The position numbers and the translations under genes were made by a program. From Candidatus Marinimicrobia bacterium CG08_land_8_20_14_0_20_45_22 (GTDB taxonomy: Bacteria > Fidelibacterota > UBA2242), in contig PEYN01000017.1 in assembly GCA_002774355.1 (NCBI GenBank), positions 1 to 33,374 on the forward strand: a stretch of DNA of 33,374 nt. The letters run 5' to 3'. The notes beneath the pieces are model-generated. The model was not told the origin of the DNA, made no database searches, and saw nothing but the letters and a program-made list of their open reading frames with translations. Within the stretch, counting starts at the first letter, position 1. The number at the start of each line of letters is the position of its first letter. Below are positions 22,209 to 33,374 of this stretch, in pieces.

Positions 22209-22223
22209 TTTGTTGACAACAAA
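22209..22223. promoter_or_regulatory. Palindromic operator candidate over the amylase -35 box
   Basis: TTTGTTGACAACAAA is a perfect 7-bp inverted repeat around a central A. It contains the whole -35 hexamer TTGACA of the adjacent promoter, so a protein bound here would block RNA polymerase. The cognate regulator is not in the window and the site does not obviously match a LacI- or GntR-type consensus. It would govern the amylase/receptor operon. Confidence 0.45.
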
Positions 22224-22241
22224 TTTTAGAAGCGATATATT
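22213..22241 (+). promoter_or_regulatory. Sigma-70-like promoter of the amylase/receptor operon
   Basis: A perfect TTGACA (22213-22218), a 17-base spacer and TATATT (22236-22241, five of six consensus bases) form the best promoter match found in the window. Transcription would begin near 22248, giving a leader of about 28 bases before the GH13 start. No strong ribosome-binding site follows. Confidence 0.6.
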
Positions 22242-22275
22242 CAAATGTGAATAGTAACTCAGTTTTGAACTACAA

Positions 22276-24141
22276 ATGATGAATGTGCGCGAAAAAAGGT
22301 CTCCCGAATTCTGTGGTGGTTTCGAATTTCGTGTCTTTTTTCTACTGATGGCAATCCTTTTTTATCTGAATCCAGAGGATTTATATTCGGGAGATAAAAG
22401 TCCTGAGTGGGCAAAAACTGCGATTTGGTATCAGATATTCCCGGAACGATTTCGGAATGGAGATACAAAAAATGATCCGACTGTCGAAACGCTTGAAGGA
22501 ACCTGGCCATACGATCACCAGATCGATTGGCGAATTATGCCGTGGACATCAGATTGGTACAAATTACAGCCGTGGGAAGAGAAAAATGCCCACGGTTTTT
22601 ATTACAATGCTCAAACGCGTCGGTATGGCGGAGATATTCAGGGAATTTTAGATGAACTCGATTATTTACAAGACCTCGGCATCACGGCGATCTATTTAAA
22701 TCCGATTTTTGAATCGGCGTCAGCTCACAAATACGGCGCAACGAGGTATCATCACATCGACAATAACTTTGGACCGGATCCAACAGGCGATTTGTCGATT
22801 TGGAAAATAGAAAATCCGGGCGATCCATCAACTTGGAAATGGACTGCGGCCGATAAATTATTCCTGAAACTCGTTCAGGAAGTGCATGCCCGCAAAATGA
22901 AGATAATCATCGATGGGGTGTTCAATCATGTTGGTATTCCGTTTTGGGCATTCCAGGATGTCAGAAGAAATGGAAAAGCCAGCCGATACGCTGACTGGTT
23001 CGTAATCAAATCCTTTGACGACCCAAAAACCAGCCGGGATGAATTTGAATATCAAGGGTGGTATGGAGTCACTGATTTACCGGAAGTATGGGAAGATGCA
23101 AACGGACCGGCACAAGGTTTTCGGGATCACATTCAGGCGGTCGTAAAAAGATGGGGTGATCCCAATGGCGATGGTGATCCGTCGGATGGAATCGATGGCT
23201 GGCGTTTGGATGTGGCTGAGATGGTCAGCAAATCTTTCTGGCGTGATTTCCGGAGATGGGTAAAATCAGTTAATCCGGAAGCATACCTTACCGGTGAGAT
23301 ATGGTGGGAGGATTTTCCCAATAATAAAATGTTCGATGCATCGCCCTGGCTTCAGGGCGATATTTTCGACGGTGTGATGAATTACCGTTTCGGGGATGCG
23401 ATGCTCAAGGGCTTTGTTGATAAAAAGATGCATGCGAATCCGACCGGCCTGGATCAGTTATTGGGCGATATCCGCAATAAATATCCGTTGCCGGCTCAGT
23501 ATCAATTGATGAATATCATGGGCAGTCATGATAACGAGCGCTTTGCCAGCCTGCTAATAAATCCCGATCGGTGGATCGACCATGGCGGAAATCTGGGTTA
23601 TAATAAGGATTTCAAGGTTAATCGTCCATCTGAATCAGACCGTGAGGTGCAGAAAGCGATCCTTGTATTTCAATTTACGTACATCGGCGCTCCATATATT
23701 TATTATGGTGATGAGGTTGGGATGTGGGGAGCCGATGATCCCGATAATCGAAAGCCGATGGTCTGGTCTGATTTGAGCTATGAAACCGAGACGGCTCATC
23801 CATTCAACATGAAAAGGTCAGCGGATTTGGTCGAGGTAGATCAGGAACTGTTCGACTTTTACAAATCTGTGATTCTTCTACGCAAGGAACACGAGAGTCT
23901 GCGCCAAGGACTTTATCGTACAGTGGCTCTTGACGATAAAAATAATTTATTTACTTTTGAAAGGTGTAGTAAAGAAGAGACAATAAGAGTGATTTTTAAT
24001 CTTTCAGATAAAGTGCAAAAAATTGATTGTAGAATTCTATTTCCAAAGAGTGAAAAGTGGAAAGTTCTTTTTGGAAATGCCGCATTTGATGATCCATTAC
24101 AGCCGAAATCTGCCAGAATATTTATAAAAGAGATGAAATAA
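22276..24141 (+). CDS. Secreted GH13 alpha-amylase family enzyme (neopullulanase/cyclomaltodextrinase-like)
   Basis: A 621-residue glycoside hydrolase that should cleave alpha-1,4-glucosidic bonds of starch or maltodextrin. A hydrophobic segment (VFFLLMAILFYL, about residues 18-32) suggests a signal peptide or anchor. The (beta/alpha)8 barrel has the conserved regions: DGVFNH (Asp213, His218), GWRLDVAE with nucleophile Asp312, TGEIWW with acid/base Glu341, and GSHDNERF with the transition-state Asp419. An acidic loop (NGDGDPSDGIDG) precedes the nucleophile strand, as in many neopullulanase-type members, and may bind Ca2+. A beta-sandwich C-domain follows from about residue 530. It leads a long operon; the parvulin-like gene starts 13 bases later. 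Exact specificity is not decided by sequence. Confidence 0.92.
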   Translation: MMNVREKRSPEFCGGFEFRVFFLLMAILFYLNPEDLYSGDKSPEWAKTAIWYQIFPERFRNGDTKNDPTVETLEGTWPYDHQIDWRIMPWTSDWYKLQPWEEKNAHGFYYNAQTRRYGGDIQGILDELDYLQDLGITAIYLNPIFESASAHKYGATRYHHIDNNFGPDPTGDLSIWKIENPGDPSTWKWTAADKLFLKLVQEVHARKMKIIIDGVFNHVGIPFWAFQDVRRNGKASRYADWFVIKSFDDPKTSRDEFEYQGWYGVTDLPEVWEDANGPAQGFRDHIQAVVKRWGDPNGDGDPSDGIDGWRLDVAEMVSKSFWRDFRRWVKSVNPEAYLTGEIWWEDFPNNKMFDASPWLQGDIFDGVMNYRFGDAMLKGFVDKKMHANPTGLDQLLGDIRNKYPLPAQYQLMNIMGSHDNERFASLLINPDRWIDHGGNLGYNKDFKVNRPSESDREVQKAILVFQFTYIGAPYIYYGDEVGMWGADDPDNRKPMVWSDLSYETETAHPFNMKRSADLVEVDQELFDFYKSVILLRKEHESLRQGLYRTVALDDKNNLFTFERCSKEETIRVIFNLSDKVQKIDCRILFPKSEKWKVLFGNAAFDDPLQPKSARIFIKEMK

Positions 24142-24154
24142 GTAAGTAGTTTTA

Positions 24155-25861
24155 ATGAAATATCTTTTACATAGTGTTTCGATCAATCGACCCTTAGTGT
24201 TGATTGTATTGTTAGTATTTGGATCATGGGTTCTTGGGTTTGCAGATAACAAAAAAGTCCTTGCCGTTTATAATGGTGGTTCTGTCAGCATTGATGAATT
24301 TTTAAATAATTACAGGAATTATTTAAAAATTACCGGTATCAAGGATAACATGATCAGCAGGAAACTAATTTTGGATAGTGTTATCAATGAGAAAATAGTG
24401 CTTGCTGAATTTAAAAATGCAAAAATGGAACATGAGGCTGTTTATATCGAAGAACAAAATCTTATTTATGACCAACTTTTATTAAATAGTTACTTCGAGA
24501 AAGAAATTCTTCCGAAGATACAATTTAACAATGCTCAATTATCAAACTATTTTACGATGGAAAATACATTGTATCATATCAAACAAATTTTCACAGGAAG
24601 TTATGATACTGCGATCGTTTATTATCAATTATTAAACTCAGGTATATCCATTGAAGCGCTAGTTAACCGGATGAAAATACCGGAAGTGAAATATGATTTA
24701 GGGTTTGTTTTAATAAACGATGTTCACCCGCAATTTCGTGAAATTATCCAGAGGCTTCAGCCAGGTGAAATCAGTATGCCTTTAAAGGGTCAGTATGGGT
24801 ATACGGTTTTAAAACTGGAAGAAAAACGCGTAAGACCTCTTCTGACAGAATATGAATTTGCCAAACAGAGAAAATTTTTGTCTGAAAAGTTGGCGGTGGA
24901 ATATAAGGATTCCTTAAGGCATGAGTATGTAAAAAAGCTAGCGGAGGGACTTGAGGTTGAATGGTATGAAGAAAAACTCCCTGATTTACTCCATATAATG
25001 ATGAGCGCTAGAGAGAAAAGTGATTTGCCAATTCACCATGATACTCGTGGGATTTTCAGTGATCCGGTATGCAGTGTAAGGAATAACAAATACAATTACT
25101 TTACTCTTTTACCATATATTTTAAAGTCCAGAAATGAACATTTGAAATCTGTCAGAGATATAGAAAGTTTGAAAGATTTCATTACTGGAATTATTGTGCG
25201 TGAACAAACATTAACCGCAGCGCGAGCGATGAAAATTGAAAAGGATAATGATTTCCGGCAATTGTACGCGAAAAAAGTTTCAAAATTAAAAATTGATACT
25301 TGGATAAAAAGTTTTACTGATACTATTCTCTTTTCTGATATGGATTATGGATATTATTATGATAAAAACAAGACAGAATTTATACTTCCGATTCGAAGGA
25401 GTGTATTTGAAATATGTGCACCAAATAAAGATGCTGCTGATGAATGTTTCCAAAGAATAAAAAAGGGCGAACAATTCGGGAGTATTGCTAGTGAATTCTG
25501 TCAGTTTCACCAAAATAAGACGTCAGATGGATATCTTGGAATCCTCACGTCCGGAGAACTTGGTAAGTTTGGACCTACTATATTTTCTGCTACATTGGGT
25601 TTGGTTGTCGGGCCATATCAGTTTGAGGATGCTTATTATTTATTTCTTGCGACAGAAGAATATCCTAGCCGGGCTTTAGGTCTGCAAGAGGTAAAGCCGA
25701 TCATTGAAAAAAAATATCGTGAGGATTTAGTTCACAGTAAAATGAAGCGATATTTCGATAAAAAAGTGAAAGAATATAACGTAAAGAAGAATCTGCCAAT
25801 ACTTAAATCAATTCAATACCAAGATAGTAGTAGTAAAAGAGGAATTGTCGCCAATGAGTAA
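24155..25861 (+). CDS. Parvulin-like peptidyl-prolyl isomerase / periplasmic chaperone
   Basis: A 568-residue exported protein, with a hydrophobic signal segment (PLVLIVLLVFGSWVLGFA). A SurA-like N-terminal chaperone region (about 30-130) is followed by two divergent parvulin (PpiC-type) regions. The first, at about 140-230, includes YHIKQIFTG and LQPGEISMPLKGQYGYTVLKL; the second, at about 410-510, includes GEQFGSIASEFCQF, GYLGILTSGELG and VGPYQFEDAYYLFLA. Both have lost parts of the usual motif, so it may act more as a chaperone than an isomerase. It could fold the barrel proteins encoded downstream. Base composition here is more AT-rich than in the housekeeping region. Its end overlaps the receptor start by 8 bases. 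Confidence 0.75.
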   Translation: MKYLLHSVSINRPLVLIVLLVFGSWVLGFADNKKVLAVYNGGSVSIDEFLNNYRNYLKITGIKDNMISRKLILDSVINEKIVLAEFKNAKMEHEAVYIEEQNLIYDQLLLNSYFEKEILPKIQFNNAQLSNYFTMENTLYHIKQIFTGSYDTAIVYYQLLNSGISIEALVNRMKIPEVKYDLGFVLINDVHPQFREIIQRLQPGEISMPLKGQYGYTVLKLEEKRVRPLLTEYEFAKQRKFLSEKLAVEYKDSLRHEYVKKLAEGLEVEWYEEKLPDLLHIMMSAREKSDLPIHHDTRGIFSDPVCSVRNNKYNYFTLLPYILKSRNEHLKSVRDIESLKDFITGIIVREQTLTAARAMKIEKDNDFRQLYAKKVSKLKIDTWIKSFTDTILFSDMDYGYYYDKNKTEFILPIRRSVFEICAPNKDAADECFQRIKKGEQFGSIASEFCQFHQNKTSDGYLGILTSGELGKFGPTIFSATLGLVVGPYQFEDAYYLFLATEEYPSRALGLQEVKPIIEKKYREDLVHSKMKRYFDKKVKEYNVKKNLPILKSIQYQDSSSKRGIVANE

Positions 25862-28529
25862 ACTACGAATTACTGTGTTGTCACTATTTCTTCAGTCTGT
25901 CCTATTCGGAGGTGTAACTGGGAAGATTTCAGGAACTATTGTTGAGAAGGAGGGTCGTAAGCCGCTTATTGGATGTAATATTATTATAGAAGGCACTTAT
26001 CTCGGAGCAGCATCTTCAGCGGACGGTGATTTCATAATCCTTAATATCCCTCCGGGTTACTATAATATTCAAGCAACAATGATAGGATATGCTCCGCTTA
26101 AAATTGAGAATATTGCCGTATCGGTCGATCAAACTACAACAGTTTATATCGAAATGAATATTGAATCAATTCAAGGACAAACTGTTTTGGTGGTTTATGA
26201 TCGTCCAGACGTACAAGCCGATCGTACTTCAACTCAAGTTCACATCTCTGAAGATGTGATTCGAGATATGCCTATTCAGGAAGTCAGTGAATTAGTTGAA
26301 ATTCAATCCGGGATAACAAAGGATGCCGGTGGTGGATTACATATTAGAGGAGGACGAGGTAGCGAAGTCGTATATTGGATTGATGGAGTGCCAGTGACTG
26401 ATAGTTATGATGGCAGCGCAATTGTCGAGGTGGATAAAAATGCAATTCAGGAATTGCAACTGGTGAGTGGTACTTTTAATGCCGAATATGGCCAAGCAAT
26501 GTCGGGAATTATTAATATTGTAACTCAGACCGGAAGTGAAAAATTTCATGCTTCTATCGATGCCAGTAGTGGTGGATATTGGGCAAGTTCTGACGATATG
26601 TTTATTGGTCTTGATAAATACAATCCATTAATGACACAAAATGTTTCCGGTTCGTTTAGTGGCCCATTACTTTCCAAAAACCTTCGATTTTACCTTTCAG
26701 GAAGGAAATATTATAGTGATGGATGGTTAAATGGATATAACTATTATACACCAACAGGGACCTCCGGTGATAGCAGTATTGAAAATATGAACTGGCAAGA
26801 TAAATATTCTCTCAATGGGAAAATATCCTATTATTTAACTCATAATATCAACGTGCATTTTAATGCACTTTTAAATGAAAGAGATTACCAGGACTATGAT
26901 CACTTCTATAGATGGAATCCCAAAGGAAATCCCTATCGCTATGATAATGGTCAAAACTACTCGATTACATTGAACCATACATTAAGTTCTAAATCATTTT
27001 ATACGGTGAAAGCGTCATCAGCCTACTCCGAGTATAAACAGTACTTATATGAGGATCCATTGGATAGCCGTTATGTCCATCCTGATAGTCTTAATGTTTC
27101 CAGTTATACATATGTTACCAGCGGAACAAACTTGTATCATTACTATCGAAGTACAAATACTGCGTTGATAAAATTTGATTTAACATCACAAATGACCAAA
27201 CGTCATCTGGTAAAGATAGGGGCTGAGTGCCGATCACATGATATTGAGCAGGAAGATTATACCATAACCTATAAGACTGATAGCCAAAATATCGAAATTG
27301 AACCTTTTGAACCTGATACTTTAGGGACACATACTTCATCACACGGTTATTATCGAGAAAAACCAGAAGAATTCAGTATTTATGCCCAGGATAAACTCGA
27401 ATATCAAAACCTGATCGTAAATATTGGCCTGAGATTTGATTATTTTAACTCGAACGGACATGTATTGGCCGATCCCGAAGATCCGAATATATATTCACCG
27501 TTTAAACAAGAACACATAAATATGACTATGGCAGAGCGCGAAGCAGTCTGGTATGAAAAGGTTAAGCCAAAAACCAGTATCAGCCCACGTTTAGGATTAG
27601 CGTTTCCGATTACCGATCAAGGCGTCATTCACTTTTCCTACGGCCATTTTTTTCAAATTCCTTCATTCCAATATCTGTACAATAGTGGTATTAAAGTTGC
27701 TACTAGCGGGGGTACTTACGGACCCTATGGAAACGCTGATCTGGAACCACAGCAAACAATCATGTACGAACTTGGGTTGCAACAACAATTAATGAAAGAT
27801 CTTTCTATTGATGCTACCATGTTTTATCGGGACATACGTAATTGGGTAAGTACAAGTACTGCAATTTCCACAACAATTCCCGGAGTGACCTATGTCCAAT
27901 TTATTAACAGAGATTACGCCAATGCCCGTGGAGTCGTATTGTCATTAAAGTATAATTTAAATACTTTACTCTATGCAAATATGGAATATACTTATCAAAT
28001 TGCCGAAGGTTCGAATTCCGATCCGGGTGATGAATATAACTCTCTGTTAAACAATGAAGAGCCAACCCGGTATATCACACCACTTAATTGGGATCAGAGG
28101 CATACATTAAATGGATCTATTACTTATAACTATAATCATTGGAATATAGCCTGGATTGCATCTTATGGATCTGGCTATCCCTATACTCCGTCGATCGGTA
28201 TTTCGACCCGGACAGGATTAAATGCCAGTTCAATAATGCCCTCAAACAGCCGGCGTAAACCAACGACTTTTGAGATAAATTTTAGGATAAATTATACAAT
28301 TAAATTCGGCAAATATGACGTATCATTTTACAGTAACGTAAATAATATTCTGGATACCAGAAATGCCACCAATGTTTTTTCAGATACAGGTGAACCGGAT
28401 TACACAAATAGTATTGCTAATGTCGGTAGTGATGAAAATCGAACCAACACAGTTGAAGAATATATAATTTATCCCCATTGGTATAGTGTGCCACGGGAGA
28501 TATTATTTGGTATTAAACTATCATTATAG
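25854..28529 (+). CDS. TonB-dependent outer-membrane receptor with carboxypeptidase-regulatory-like N-domain
   Basis: An 891-residue outer-membrane transporter from the ATG at 25854; AAGAGGA upstream suits this ATG better than the TTG three codons earlier. After the signal peptide (LRITVLSLFLQSVLFGG) comes a carboxypeptidase-regulatory-like beta-sandwich (GKISGTIVEKEGRKPLIGCN to about residue 100), then a possible TonB box (TVLVVYDRP). The plug domain (about 120-230) has LHIRGGRGSEVVYWIDGVPV and FNAEYGQAMSGIINIVTQTG, and a roughly 22-strand barrel runs to the end. It resembles SusC/RagA-like receptors but no SusD-like lipoprotein follows; the next gene encodes a giant secreted protein instead. 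The neighbouring amylase suggests oligosaccharide uptake, which is an inference. Confidence 0.9.
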   Translation: MSKLRITVLSLFLQSVLFGGVTGKISGTIVEKEGRKPLIGCNIIIEGTYLGAASSADGDFIILNIPPGYYNIQATMIGYAPLKIENIAVSVDQTTTVYIEMNIESIQGQTVLVVYDRPDVQADRTSTQVHISEDVIRDMPIQEVSELVEIQSGITKDAGGGLHIRGGRGSEVVYWIDGVPVTDSYDGSAIVEVDKNAIQELQLVSGTFNAEYGQAMSGIINIVTQTGSEKFHASIDASSGGYWASSDDMFIGLDKYNPLMTQNVSGSFSGPLLSKNLRFYLSGRKYYSDGWLNGYNYYTPTGTSGDSSIENMNWQDKYSLNGKISYYLTHNINVHFNALLNERDYQDYDHFYRWNPKGNPYRYDNGQNYSITLNHTLSSKSFYTVKASSAYSEYKQYLYEDPLDSRYVHPDSLNVSSYTYVTSGTNLYHYYRSTNTALIKFDLTSQMTKRHLVKIGAECRSHDIEQEDYTITYKTDSQNIEIEPFEPDTLGTHTSSHGYYREKPEEFSIYAQDKLEYQNLIVNIGLRFDYFNSNGHVLADPEDPNIYSPFKQEHINMTMAEREAVWYEKVKPKTSISPRLGLAFPITDQGVIHFSYGHFFQIPSFQYLYNSGIKVATSGGTYGPYGNADLEPQQTIMYELGLQQQLMKDLSIDATMFYRDIRNWVSTSTAISTTIPGVTYVQFINRDYANARGVVLSLKYNLNTLLYANMEYTYQIAEGSNSDPGDEYNSLLNNEEPTRYITPLNWDQRHTLNGSITYNYNHWNIAWIASYGSGYPYTPSIGISTRTGLNASSIMPSNSRRKPTTFEINFRINYTIKFGKYDVSFYSNVNNILDTRNATNVFSDTGEPDYTNSIANVGSDENRTNTVEEYIIYPHWYSVPREILFGIKLSL

Positions 28530-28539
28530 GGGATTGCCA

Positions 28540-31500
28540 ATGAAAATTCAACGAACGATAATATTTTTAATCTTTCTAGTACAATTCTGCTTGGCTTATG
28601 TGCCGTCAACCCACAGGGGTAATCCAATTTATGAGAGGAAGACCGAGATAGATGGCAATCTTGTCCGGGCAAGTATATTTAATTATGCATTCGCGGGTCG
28701 TACCAGTGGAAGTGAACCTAACCACATTCCTTTTGAATGGCCTAAGAACACTCGTCAAGAATATATGGCAATTGTAGCGGCCTTTGTTGGCGCTGAAGTA
28801 AAAACCGAAGATGGGACTACTCAAAAAATTGTCATTACTCCCCATTATCGTACAGATCCTAATACTGGATCATCTTGGAATTTCGAACCCGTACCAGGAT
28901 TTCTCAACGAAAATTCCGATTTGATTGCTAAAAGCACTGTCGAAAATTCTTGGCCGTTGTATTGGCCTGATCGTATGAATGATACTTCAGATCCAGGCTG
29001 GATCGGCTCGTGGAACGGCTATTTTGGTAAAAATCAATTCAATGCCGATCAGGAAATCTATTATGAATGTTCCGATGACATATATAATCGTTTTAACTAT
29101 TTTCCCGATACTACAGATCTTAGTCGGCGTGGCCTCGGACTATTAATGAAAGTACGTGTGATGGCGTGGTCACAAATTTTAGTAAACGACGATGTGTTTA
29201 TTCTCCATGAAGTCATTAACGATGGAACTAAAAAATTAGAAAAAACAGTATTTTCAATTTGGTTGGCTGATATGGTTGGCGGTGATGGCGATACCGGTGA
29301 TGACCATCCCTCATTTGATATGTTGACAGATGTGGCCTGGTGTATGGATGCTTATCCTTACGTGGGCAATGACGATTTCGGCGATACGCCGGTTGGAGTT
29401 GTGGCTACTGCTTTCCTGGAAACCCCTGGAAATGGTGTGGATGGGATTGATAATGACGGTGATGCTGATTCCCATCCGGAGTTATTGTCGGAATGGTCAA
29501 ATTATGAGAACCTTGTCCCGTTATTTACCAGCGACGATTTCAATACGACAACTCTTTCGAACGGAACAAAGCTGGTGCTTATTGATGAGAATTACTCCAG
29601 GCATATTATAAGATTCCCGGGAATAGATACGACGGTAATATCCCAGGGAATTTCCTATAATTTGACAAATGGTATGATCCTCGAGGAAAATATTGATAAT
29701 TTAATCGATGATGATCTGGATGGTCTAATCGATGAAAATATTGATCTGCATTTAGATCGTTTGACAGTCGGCGGAGTAATACCGGTCCGCCACATTAACT
29801 ACAAGGCGTTTAATATCGGTGATACAATCAAACGCGGTTTATTGGTAGCCGGAGACACGGTGACCTATCGACAAGCCACAGTAGCCCCCATGATCGACGA
29901 GACTCGTTCGGATTGTGTGGATAATGATCGGGATTGGAGCGCAATTACTGATGACAATGGACTCGACGGTAAAGCGTACTCAGGGGACACAGGGGAGAAC
30001 GATAATGCGCCAACTTCCGGATATGGTACCGGATTAACCGGCGAACCGAATATCGATTTGACTGACGTTTCCGAATCAGATCAGATCGGCCTGACTTCGG
30101 CAGCCTATATTGCTTCTGCCGAAAACACTACCGGTTATGCTGATAATAAGATGTGGCGTGAATTTCTTACACCCGGAAAATTTTTCGATCCTACAACTGA
30201 ATTAGAGGGTGACTATAATCTTCATATCAGTTCCGGATATTTTCCGCTGGAAGTCGGTCAGACGGAGAGGATCTCCATTTCTGTCAACCTTGGTGTCGAT
30301 CAGACAGATGCTCTCAGAAATAAAGATGTTGCCCAAAAGACTTATGATATGGACTATCAATTTGCGAAGGCTCCGCGGGCGCCAACAGTGACTGCGGTAG
30401 CCGGAGATGGAAAAGTAACAATTTATTGGGATGATCTTGCCGAGCAATCATACGATAATTATATGGCTGATTTAGGAGCTAACGGTTATGATTTCGAAGG
30501 TTATCGAATTTACCGCTCCACTGATCCGGCATTTTCCGATCAATATCTGATCACAGACACAGATGGGGTACTGACTTATTACAAACCGGTTGCCCAATTT
30601 GACCTCGATAATGGTATACAGCGAGTGGATTCTTCATTAGATATAAATGGCATCAAATATGATCTGGGCGATGATACCGGAATCCAACATACTTATGTCG
30701 ATGAAAATGTCCAGAACGGACAACGATATTTTTATGCCGTGACCTCGTATGACGCCGGCGGGTACAGTATGGGAATTGCGCCGTCGGAATGTCCCATATA
30801 TGTACAGCTCCTGTCAGACGGTAGTGTTGAGACTGGGATTAATGTCGCTGAAGTAACTCCTTCACCTAATCCGGCTGGCTATGTCGAACCCGAAATTGCC
30901 ATCGAACATCTTTCGGGCTCGAGTTCAAGTCGAATTAACCTTGAAATAATTGATCAAATGGCGTTGAAAGACCGAAATGTATATCAAATAACTTTTGAAG
31001 ACACGACCAAGAAAGCCTCAAAACGAATCTACGAGGATACCTTAACCACTAAAAATTTCACCCTTGTGAATGTTACTGACATCGCTGAACCCGATACGCT
31101 GATTGATCATTCTACAAAAATTCATACCGGTGATGAACATCTTGTTATAGATGGTTTTCAGATCTCGTTTAATCTTGAATCGGTGATTGAATTAAACAGT
31201 AGTTTGTCGAAGTGGAATGGTGGCGATACCATGATTTTTGCACCGATATTTATGCGCTGGGAGGATATCGGCAAGGTAGGATATCGAAAACCGTCAGATT
31301 ATCGTTTGACCATCGGTGATGTTGGTTTGGGGAAAAGTACCCAGATGAAAGTTGCCGGGGGAGTGGTTACCCTGCCCGCGATAAATGTAAATTTCAAAAT
31401 TGAAAATATAACGGAGAATAAAGTACTGGATTTCGGCTTTTGGGAACTTGATACAACCGGAGGAACAGGAAAGTTAACCTCAAATCTCGATGAATCGGAT

Positions 31501-32040
31501 ATTATAATCTTATTGGAAGATAAAATAAGTACCAGTGGTGATACGACCAGTGTATATACTTGGCAATTCAAAATGAAGCATCTCATTCCCGATTCATTAA
31601 AACGGCATCCGCGATCAGGTGATGTGGTCGATCTTATCGTAAAGAAACCGTTCCTCGGTGATGATTTATTTGAATTCACAATATATGGTCCGGAAATCAG
31701 TAAAAAAGCAGTCAAGTCTGATATTAAACAAATCAAAGTAGTTCCAAATCCTTATATCGGGGCCAATACCTGGGAGACGAAGAATCCTTATGATTCAGGT
31801 CGAGGTCCTAGAGTTATTCATTTTAACCATGTTCCGATGGATTGCGAAATCACGATCTTGAACATAGCAGGTGAAATCGTTGATCAATTTGAAGTGCATA
31901 ATGCTATTGACGACGGTATTGCCGAATGGGATTTATTATCGAAGGATAATTTGTCTATTTCATACGGACTTTATCTCTATCATGTAAAAGATCTGTTAAG
32001 CAATGCGGTACAAACCGGGAAATTTGCGGTTATTAAATAG
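28540..32040 (+). CDS. Giant secreted protein with acidic repeats, FnIII domain and C-terminal sorting-like domain
   Basis: A 1166-residue protein. The ATG at 28540 follows AGGGGA and begins the signal peptide (MKIQRTIIFLIFLVQFCLA); an upstream in-frame ATG at 28486 runs inside the receptor gene. The N-terminal half is of a type I associate with FCB-lineage proteins (GNLVRASIFNYAFAGRT, IPFEWPKNTRQEY). Acidic D-rich loops that may bind Ca2+ occur at about 301-310 (DGIDNDGDAD), 389-399 (IDDDLDGLIDE) and 458-465 (DCVDNDRD). A fibronectin type III-like region lies at about 611-755 (VTIYWDDLAE, RYFYAVTSYDAGG). From about 1060 the C-terminus, with VPNPY at 1068 and ending YGLYLYHVK...GKFAVIK, resembles type IX secretion or FlgD-like sorting domains. 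The function is unknown; surface exposure beside the receptor is likely. Confidence 0.75.
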   Translation: MKIQRTIIFLIFLVQFCLAYVPSTHRGNPIYERKTEIDGNLVRASIFNYAFAGRTSGSEPNHIPFEWPKNTRQEYMAIVAAFVGAEVKTEDGTTQKIVITPHYRTDPNTGSSWNFEPVPGFLNENSDLIAKSTVENSWPLYWPDRMNDTSDPGWIGSWNGYFGKNQFNADQEIYYECSDDIYNRFNYFPDTTDLSRRGLGLLMKVRVMAWSQILVNDDVFILHEVINDGTKKLEKTVFSIWLADMVGGDGDTGDDHPSFDMLTDVAWCMDAYPYVGNDDFGDTPVGVVATAFLETPGNGVDGIDNDGDADSHPELLSEWSNYENLVPLFTSDDFNTTTLSNGTKLVLIDENYSRHIIRFPGIDTTVISQGISYNLTNGMILEENIDNLIDDDLDGLIDENIDLHLDRLTVGGVIPVRHINYKAFNIGDTIKRGLLVAGDTVTYRQATVAPMIDETRSDCVDNDRDWSAITDDNGLDGKAYSGDTGENDNAPTSGYGTGLTGEPNIDLTDVSESDQIGLTSAAYIASAENTTGYADNKMWREFLTPGKFFDPTTELEGDYNLHISSGYFPLEVGQTERISISVNLGVDQTDALRNKDVAQKTYDMDYQFAKAPRAPTVTAVAGDGKVTIYWDDLAEQSYDNYMADLGANGYDFEGYRIYRSTDPAFSDQYLITDTDGVLTYYKPVAQFDLDNGIQRVDSSLDINGIKYDLGDDTGIQHTYVDENVQNGQRYFYAVTSYDAGGYSMGIAPSECPIYVQLLSDGSVETGINVAEVTPSPNPAGYVEPEIAIEHLSGSSSSRINLEIIDQMALKDRNVYQITFEDTTKKASKRIYEDTLTTKNFTLVNVTDIAEPDTLIDHSTKIHTGDEHLVIDGFQISFNLESVIELNSSLSKWNGGDTMIFAPIFMRWEDIGKVGYRKPSDYRLTIGDVGLGKSTQMKVAGGVVTLPAINVNFKIENITENKVLDFGFWELDTTGGTGKLTSNLDESDIIILLEDKISTSGDTTSVYTWQFKMKHLIPDSLKRHPRSGDVVDLIVKKPFLGDDLFEFTIYGPEISKKAVKSDIKQIKVVPNPYIGANTWETKNPYDSGRGPRVIHFNHVPMDCEITILNIAGEIVDQFEVHNAIDDGIAEWDLLSKDNLSISYGLYLYHVKDLLSNAVQTGKFAVIK

Positions 32041-32048
32041 GTGATGGA

Positions 32049-33059
32049 ATGGGGAAAAAAATAATAGTATTGATTGTTTTTATTTGCAATGTAATGTTAG
32101 CTCAATCAATATCGAAGGTTGGAACATCATCCGCTAAGTTTTTAAATGTTCCAGTTGATGCTTGGGGAACTGGCCGAGGGGGGGCGGTTGTCGCTGGATT
32201 TAAAGATGCGTCAACTCTTTTTTGGAATCCGGCAACGATCACGTTTCTTGATAGAATGTCAACTCATTTCAGTTATACGAAATGGTTTGAGGATATCAGT
32301 TTCAACTACATCGCAGCAGTAATTCCATTTCGAACGGGTACCTTTGGTGTCAATGCAACATTTTATCAAACAAATCCGATTGAGGTGACAACAGAGCTTT
32401 ATCAGGATGGTACTGGAGAATATTATTCGGTGAGTAGCAATGCCATCGGCCTAGCCTATGCCCGAAATCTTACTGATAAATTTGCGATCGGCGCCAACGC
32501 AAAATATATTATTGAAAATATTTATCATTGTTCTGCTACTGGTTTAGCATTGGATATTGGCGGCCACTATGTAACTCCTTGGAAAGGGCTTCGGCTTGGT
32601 TTTTCGATAAATAATTTTGGTACAAAGATGCAAATGACCGGAGAAGATTTACTGATCACTACTGACCCAGATCCTTCCAATAGCGGTAATAACGACAATA
32701 TCAATGCTTATTACGCTACAGATAAATTTGATTTGCCTTTATCAATGACGATTGGAATGGCTTGGGATTTAAACTTTTTGAAAAAAAATAAACTTACTCT
32801 GGAGATAGATGGCATTTATCCGAGTGATAACTATGCAAGCGTCAATACCGGGATAGAGATGTCGATGTTTAATGATATTATTCATTTACGTTCGGGAATA
32901 AGTGATCTGTTTATGAAATCGGAAGAACCACAATATTCATTTGGCGGAGGTATCCGTTGCCCAATTCTCGGGCAGATGGTTCTAAATGTTGATTATTCAT
33001 ATCAATTGCATGAATACTTCAATAAAAATGAACATTTTTCTATATCAATTACATATTAA
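32049..33059 (+). CDS. PorV/PorQ-family (UPF0164) outer-membrane protein
   Basis: A 336-residue protein with a signal peptide (MGKKIIVLIVFICNVMLAQS) and the family N-terminus: SAKFLNVPVDAWGTGRGGA, then ASTLFWNPATI, as in FadL-like barrels of the PorV group. Later strands (FAIGANAKYIIENIYH, GLRLGFSINNFGTKMQM) are typical. In type IX secretion PorV receives cargo bearing C-terminal sorting domains at the outer membrane, which fits the preceding gene, 8 bases upstream. Whether a full type IX system exists cannot be seen here. It may also be a general FCB barrel of unknown function. Confidence 0.83.
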   Translation: MGKKIIVLIVFICNVMLAQSISKVGTSSAKFLNVPVDAWGTGRGGAVVAGFKDASTLFWNPATITFLDRMSTHFSYTKWFEDISFNYIAAVIPFRTGTFGVNATFYQTNPIEVTTELYQDGTGEYYSVSSNAIGLAYARNLTDKFAIGANAKYIIENIYHCSATGLALDIGGHYVTPWKGLRLGFSINNFGTKMQMTGEDLLITTDPDPSNSGNNDNINAYYATDKFDLPLSMTIGMAWDLNFLKKNKLTLEIDGIYPSDNYASVNTGIEMSMFNDIIHLRSGISDLFMKSEEPQYSFGGGIRCPILGQMVLNVDYSYQLHEYFNKNEHFSISITY

Positions 33060-33118
33060 TATTGAGGATTAAAGAAAGTAAGTAAATGTCGTTTCTAACA
33101 AAAAAAAGGAGAATCATC

Positions 33119-33374
33119 ATGAAAAAAGCTACGAGTGTGGTGGTCGCATTACTAATGATGTTATCATTCGGTTTTGCGGCTAATGTGACCTTTAAGGTTC
33201 ACATGGAGTATCAGGTAGCACAGGGGAATTTCAATCCTGTAACTGATACTGTGGATGTCATTGGCGGTTTTACCAGTGGATGGAGTACTTATGTGCAACT
33301 GACCGATGACGATCATAATAATGTCTGGGAAGGTACCCTGACTATTGCCGAGGGTGATTATGGATTCAAATTCC
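33119..33374 (+). CDS. Secreted protein, starch-binding-like N-domain (3' end outside window)
   Basis: The first 85 codons of a gene that runs off the right edge. AAGGAG at 33107-33112 is 6 bases before the ATG. A signal peptide (MKKATSVVVALLMMLSFGFA) leads into a beta-rich domain whose layout resembles carbohydrate-binding Ig-like modules of extracellular FCB proteins: NVTFKVHMEYQV, GNFNPVTDTVDVIGGF, GWSTYVQLTDDDHNNVWEGT, EGDYGFKF. Resemblance is to the CBM20/CBM48-like or SusE/SusF-type folds; exact family is uncertain. It follows the PorV-like gene by 59 bases. Its location in an amylase operon supports glucan binding. Confidence 0.65.
   Translation, partial: MKKATSVVVALLMMLSFGFAANVTFKVHMEYQVAQGNFNPVTDTVDVIGGFTSGWSTYVQLTDDDHNNVWEGTLTIAEGDYGFKF

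Follow-up and report, generated by a model that had tools for sequence, protein, structure and literature searches.

Predictions of glycan uptake in FCB bacteria usually start from SusCD pairs, and phyla free of SusD consequently look like poor users of glycans. Within the type IX secretion system (T9SS), barrels dedicated to one cargo and encoded directly downstream of it are established for type B C-terminal domains (CTDs) with PorP/SprF (PMC12618676, PMC9143113), and two CTDs stay in place: that of PorU is not removed and remains bound to PorV, and that of PorZ is kept to bind PorQ (PMC10202324, a review). The locus considered here is the right part of a contig of 33,374 bases (the window) from Candidatus Marinimicrobia bacterium CG08_land_8_20_14_0_20_45_22, which holds a six-gene operon. 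The core of this operon is a fixed and truly conserved cassette encoding a TonB-dependent receptor, a giant secreted protein (the giant) and an outer-membrane barrel of the PorV/PorQ family. My preferred reading, to which I give a probability of about 0.58, is that the operon is an alpha-glucan uptake locus without SusD, in which the giant, docked in its own PorV-like barrel, partners the receptor and stands functionally in SusD's place. A search of the open-access literature turned up no account of this trio, nor any of the VPNPY domain that ends the giant.

The source genome is a draft (2.63 Mb, 213 contigs, 97% complete). The window is the whole of one contig, and coordinates count from its start. 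The features of the region are:

22213..22241, plus strand: candidate sigma-70-type promoter, TTGACA-N17-TATATT, called by consensus match alone, about 35 bases ahead of the first gene
22276..24141, plus strand: GH13 enzyme of the neopullulanase / cyclomaltodextrinase / maltogenic amylase group, with a hydrophobic N-terminus and the motifs GWRLDVAE, GEIW and HDNE
24155..25861, plus strand: exported PPIC-type prolyl isomerase (PPIase) chaperone, SurA/PrsA-like, with two rotamase stretches
25854..28529, plus strand: TonB-dependent receptor with N-terminal CarboxypepD_reg domain, plug and barrel; first member of the cassette
28540..32040, plus strand: giant secreted protein of 1166 amino acids (aa), with a Sec signal peptide and no lipobox; second member of the cassette
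29890..31029, plus strand: best-conserved core of the giant (residues ~451-830), an acidic ESDQIGL segment and a fibronectin-III-like part (EGYRIYR ... YFYAV)
31729..32037, plus strand: VVPNPY domain at the C-terminus of the giant, a homologue of T9SS CTDs, the nearest being those of PorU and PorZ
32049..33059, plus strand: outer-membrane barrel of the PorV/PorQ family, in a group of cassette-linked paralogues; third member of the cassette
33119..33374, plus strand: start of a secreted starch-binding protein of CBM48/CBM20 type, a CBM48-like fragment by Pfam/NCBIfam, cut by the contig end

The six plus-strand genes lie where a first-pass annotation of the sequence had put them, with gaps of 13, -8, 10, 8 and 59 bases. 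Its identifications (amylase, parvulin-like chaperone, TonB receptor, 1166-residue protein, PorV-like protein, starch-binding-like protein) are backed by Pfam and NCBIfam models, at 183 bits for the GH13 enzyme, except for the giant, which matches nothing in Pfam or NCBIfam. One strong promoter had also been claimed. The site is indeed the best of the region, scoring 11 of 12 against the consensus, but promoter-like sites as a class are barely more frequent there than chance would have them (48 found, 41 expected from shuffles), and the promoter therefore counts only as plausible. With GH13 and CBM48, both a glycan enzyme and a glycan-binding protein are present in the operon, as in a SusCD locus.

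The cassette was defined from 84 loci (the window, copies in its own genome, and the closest syntenic locus, L046, with further relatives), in which genes were labelled by iterated profiles. These loci contain 95 giants. Where the upstream neighbor is in view (89 giants), it is the receptor in 80, another giant in six and PorV in three. The downstream neighbor (88 in view) is PorV in 70, a PPIase in 12, nine of which are followed in turn by PorV, and a giant in six. Among neighbors in view, none of the giants has an unrelated gene on either side. The trio picked out by the first-pass annotation is thus a conserved unit across the collected loci. The pairwise distances in 60 complete trios are strongly correlated (receptor-giant 0.93, giant-PorV 0.85, receptor-PorV 0.88, against a permutation maximum of 0.12). 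In loci with GH13, the members of the trio correlate with one another at about 0.95 and with GH13 at just 0.18-0.23, the nearest GH13 being perhaps non-orthologous in some loci. It follows that the three genes are passed on together, and that enzymes are gained and lost around them.

The genome from which the window comes has trios of receptor, VPNPY-domain protein and PorV on contigs C17 (the window), C143, C33, C118, C158, C72 and C60. Contigs C74 and C105 carry two halves of perhaps one further trio, and C124 has a receptor and PorV with no protein between them. The two halves (G000:C74:1-2364 and G000:C105:3742-5235, in loci L044 and L045) are contig ends whose pieces of one giant gene resemble each other closely without being the same; they may be strain variants of a single locus broken in assembly, or else a recent duplication. 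The shorter VPNPY proteins of this genome (620-1319 aa) share with the giants the CTD and short pieces of the core. One VPNPY protein of 694 aa (G000:C119, L143_10, at L143:14162-16246) has neither PorV nor a receptor adjacent and is the sole orphan found in the genome. Variants of the cassette occur in L078, L079, L081 and L070, L127, with two tandem giants before a single PorV, or PorV between receptor and giant.

The end of the giant is what connects the cassette to type IX secretion. PNPY or PNPW lies close to the C-terminus in 86 of the 90 giants longer than 800 aa, and the usual type A motif, NPFN, in none of them. Profile comparison shows the VPNPY domain to be a homologue of type A CTDs (probability 98, E 1.6e-13), and 31 sequences of the domain are matched by the PorZ model in 29 cases (best 2.8e-9), by PorU in 22 and by TIGR04183 in 16 (E<=0.01). 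The match to PorZ in a full-length giant covers the end of the model, 667-757 of 757. Against the PDB, the best matches of the VPNPY profile are PorU (6za2, E 0.0028) and PorZ (5m11, E 0.016). Together with the signal peptide, read from sequence, the profile match marks the giant as probable T9SS cargo, though of neither standard type. The window's giant does not pass the curated cut-offs of TIGR04183 or PF18962 that define type A. Type B, a CTD of PF13585 or TIGR04131 with a PorP/SprF partner, does not fit either: four of 29 giants match PF13585, weakly (best 7e-4), and the partner is of the PorV family. Two giants carry two-component-regulator propeller repeats (PF07494), and the phage tail tube model NF052337 matches two.

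The barrel belongs to the PorV/PorQ family (it scores 167 bits with NF033709, where the cut-off is 90), but it falls below both equivalog cut-offs (PorV 71 of 250, PorQ 87 of 220) and so is no clear orthologue of either. Its closest solved relative is the PorV of the SprA translocon complex. The pairing of this family with one class of CTD is pronounced: a PorV-family gene comes next or second after VPNPY-domain proteins in 87 of 95 cases and after type A cargo in 4 of 92, in a set that was selected by the giant. The loci of the own genome, picked mostly by matches to PorV, give 8 of 9 and 3 of 10. The PorV-like gene being integral to the unit and the giant bearing a CTD of T9SS type, the unit is best described as a receptor, a partner presumably exported by the T9SS, and a dedicated barrel.

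Nearly 20 matches to the PorV family, some nine of them in receptor loci, are found in this genome of 2.6 Mb. The paralogues from trio loci cluster together, with moderate support (80-91), and apart from PorV-family genes outside trios, including those of the SprA region. The separate cluster and the roughly nine paralogues in receptor loci are the grounds for rejecting the window's gene as the general PorV of the genome's T9SS. Of the machinery itself, the SprA translocon (SprA_N 120 bits, in a 2114-aa frame) and C25 peptidases of the PorU fold (seven matches, best 293 bits) are present. Secreted proteins with ordinary type A domains and no PorV of their own flank trios at L043:3-1322, L044:5071-6837 and L046:14546-17098; the last is the orthologue of the window's truncated CBM48/CBM20 protein, 850 aa long with a type A CTD.

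SusD is absent. Three models (PF07980, PF14322, PF12771) match nothing in the own genome, nor in the 16 genomes that make up its family, and there is none in L046. The first-pass annotation had seen no SusD-like gene in view. The region to the right cannot be read, since the window is the whole contig. L046, from the nearest named relative, has a giant 76% identical to the window's and the same order of genes, GH13-PPIase-receptor-giant-PorV-CBM48/CBM20 protein with type A T9SS domain, followed by a second receptor and giant. A SusD just past the right edge is therefore rejected, given its absence both genome-wide and from the syntenic relative. The giant as a diverged SusD was also considered and set aside: no SusD match was obtained in Pfam, in NCBIfam or in a profile search of the PDB, and any relation between the two is undetectable by sequence.

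The same annotation called the receptor SusC-like, which I would withdraw. No SusC/RagA model matched it; NCBIfam at E<=1 gave only models of siderophore/PQQ type, at 13-46 bits (assuming that SusC models are present in the library). What does match are the barrel, plug and CarbopepD_reg domains, and its resemblance by sequence to solved receptors is confined to the plug region. Judged by these matches, it is a generic TonB receptor of CarbopepD_reg type and no member of the SusC family.

What the cassette takes up must be read from its neighbors. Of 59 loci whose run includes two or more further genes, 40 contain a carbohydrate gene and 28 a carbohydrate enzyme, counting the scanned families only. 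Carbohydrate genes appear in 35 of 52 trio windows versus 1 of 20 control windows, taken systematically from some of the same genomes with the own locus excluded (Fisher p=2e-6), a contrast somewhat inflated because trio loci themselves supplied the reference set. The contexts include GH13, GH31, GH94, GH130, GH29, GH9, glucoamylase-like enzymes, CBM9, CBM20/48, GlcNAc 2-epimerase, LacI, TrmB and ABC/SSF transporters. Within the own genome, trios adjoin LacI and GH94 (C74/C105), GH9 and YdjC (C158), a sugar-type ABC system (C72), and GHL10 and SSF (C118). In relatives of the window's locus, CBM48/CBM20, SSF and TrmB genes come next. The link to carbohydrates suggested in the first-pass annotation thus stands as an enrichment, with the qualification that the trio is general, lies elsewhere beside GH94, GH130, GH29, GH9 or sugar ABC genes, and in some loci has no evident carbohydrate gene beside it. 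The subclade to which the window belongs is consistent: its receptor falls in a clade of eight (99% SH-aLRT), all eight with GH13 or GH31 nearby, and the GH13/GH31 label changes five times on the receptor tree, versus 13.4 times in shuffles (0/500). From this clade, alpha-glucan is a well supported guess for the substrate of this copy.

A mechanism consistent with these observations would run as follows. The secreted starch-binding protein would collect alpha-glucan at the cell surface. The giant, predicted to be exported by the T9SS, would keep its PorU/PorZ-like CTD uncleaved and lodged in its own PorV-like barrel, the product of the gene that follows, and would for that reason be held at the surface beside the receptor. 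There it would serve as the receptor's extracellular partner in capturing substrate, the functional place of SusD. The receptor would take in maltodextrin, to be degraded by the GH13 enzyme, and the parvulin-like chaperone may aid the folding of the outer-membrane parts. The first-pass annotation had given the giant SusD's place next to the receptor and proposed an alternative glucan-uptake system. The adjacency and the absence of SusD hold, and the role is what I infer; the proposed system survives in outline (no SusD, a conserved trio, a link to carbohydrates), altered in that the receptor is not SusC, PorV is integral and the trio is general.

Several results weigh against this reading. No recognised carbohydrate-binding domain is found in the giant. 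Its conservation is highest at residues ~451-830 and in the CTD, both common to cassettes of very different context, and the conserved core may for that reason be structural rather than glycan-binding; glycan specificity, if any, should then be a matter of the variable stretches or of the receptor. The window's own CTD was matched by no curated model at the cut-offs used, and those of relatives were matched mostly below curated cut-offs. AlphaFold gave no usable model of the whole giant (pLDDT 25, three sequences) or of the CTD (pLDDT 42, two sequences). The correlated distances speak of common inheritance, not of contact. Finally, some trios have other company: PhoD/FAD oxidoreductase/MFS at L105 and L107, an M3 peptidase on the opposite strand at L111 and L113, and peptidoglycan recognition and serine hydrolase proteins in Rhodothermus.

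These points leave room for a simpler account, unlikely but the most serious of the alternatives, by which the giant binds glycan at the surface or has a structural role there, like SusE/F or an adhesin, is exported and anchored by way of its PorV, and is co-regulated with a receptor it never touches. TonB receptors for glycans that work without SusD are established outside Bacteroidota, and the receptor would then act alone, as in Gammaproteobacteria. The linkage of CTD and PorV would account for export and anchoring with no part for the receptor, and the orphan on C119 does without one. The account has difficulty with the position of the receptor, which lies directly upstream in 80 of 89 cases across all substrate contexts, and with the shorter VPNPY proteins of the own genome, which also come after a receptor.

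Decidedly less probable is that receptor and barrel serve mainly to assemble or export the giant, which would make the cassette a unit for secretion or assembly that glycan enzymes happen to accompany. In its favor, the cassette often includes a PPIase, and the BAM complex of Bacteroidota joins a FadL-type barrel (BamG), a surface lipoprotein and a protein of PPI fold (PMC12611786). Most neighbors, however, are nutrient genes (sugar ABC transporters, SSF symporters, LacI/TrmB regulators, glycoside hydrolases, phosphorylases), and the receptor keeps its TonB plug. PorV has the FadL fold, and the PorV-like protein gives a weak Toluene_X/FadL match in Pfam. That it is a FadL-type channel for small substrates, linked only indirectly to the CTD, is nonetheless very improbable even with BamG of FadL fold as a parallel (PMC12611786), given a pairing specific to one CTD class and a closest solved relative that is the PorV of the SprA complex.

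Returning to the uptake locus, a homologue of the giant is encoded by 187 of the 245 genomes covered for the phylum, and by 79 of the 94 that are of high quality, many of the listed genomes without one being small (0.4-1.0 Mb). PF07980 is found at E<=1e-10 in 31 of the 245. A scan of a genome collection found L046 alone, and a scan of viral contigs found no further relatives. Outside the phylum, the distribution is known from a plasmid collection only, which gave one relative, in Rhodothermota, on plasmid pRMAR01 of Rhodothermus marinus DSM 4252 (NC_013502.1, L170:10804-17946), scored here against the trio profiles:

RMAR_RS14120: receptor, 973 bits
RMAR_RS14115: hypothetical protein corresponding to the giant, 1091 bits, with its VPNPY domain at 129 bits
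RMAR_RS14110: PorV/PorQ family, 390 bits

The plasmid also carries type III-A and I-U CRISPR genes, and the trio adjoins a protein of the peptidoglycan-recognition family and a serine hydrolase. With this copy in a cultured thermophile, the role of the cassette is testable; R. marinus can be electroporated, and targeted disruptions have been achieved (PMC8614978). It is a tentative proposal, at somewhat less than even odds, that a phylum mostly without SusD takes up its glycans mainly through this cassette, which is present in Rhodothermota as well. If it is an uptake machine, triplets of receptor, VPNPY protein and PorV become a marker to search for, with the substrate read off the neighboring enzymes. 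Nutrient uptake would then be tied mechanically and directly to type IX secretion, and the principle of a shuttle barrel dedicated to its cargo, so far known from type B domains and PorP/SprF, would extend to PorV paralogues with PorU/PorZ-like domains.

Compared with known systems, the operon most resembles the SusCD and SusCDEF loci of Bacteroidota in its contents: a TonB-dependent receptor with CarboxypepD_reg domain, a GH13 enzyme of neopullulanase type and a starch-binding protein share one operon. It differs from them in having neither SusD nor SusE/F, in a receptor unmatched by SusC/RagA models, and in a partner that is not a lipoprotein but has a T9SS-type CTD and a PorV-family barrel of its own. 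The pedal-bin uptake of vitamin B12 by BtuB-BtuG in Bacteroides (PMC10404256) also combines a TonB receptor with a co-encoded extracellular partner other than SusD, but BtuG is a lipoprotein lid, and BtuBG involves neither PorV nor the T9SS. In the T9SS attachment complex (PMC10202324), the pairs PorU-PorV and PorZ-PorQ have uncleaved, PorV- or PorQ-bound CTDs to which that of the giant is homologous; in contrast to these pairs, the cargo of the cassette is no sortase or lipopolysaccharide carrier, its barrels are separate paralogues, and its operons are nutrient loci. For the barrel, the closest working precedent, by analogy, is type B cargo with PorP/SprF shuttles, such as SprB-SprF (PMC12618676, PMC9143113). 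There too a big surface protein with a particular class of CTD is paired with a dedicated barrel directly downstream, and many paralogous pairs of cargo and barrel occur in one genome; the cassette departs from that pattern in a barrel of the PorV/PorQ family, a PorU/PorZ-like CTD, and a TonB receptor as a third fixed member.

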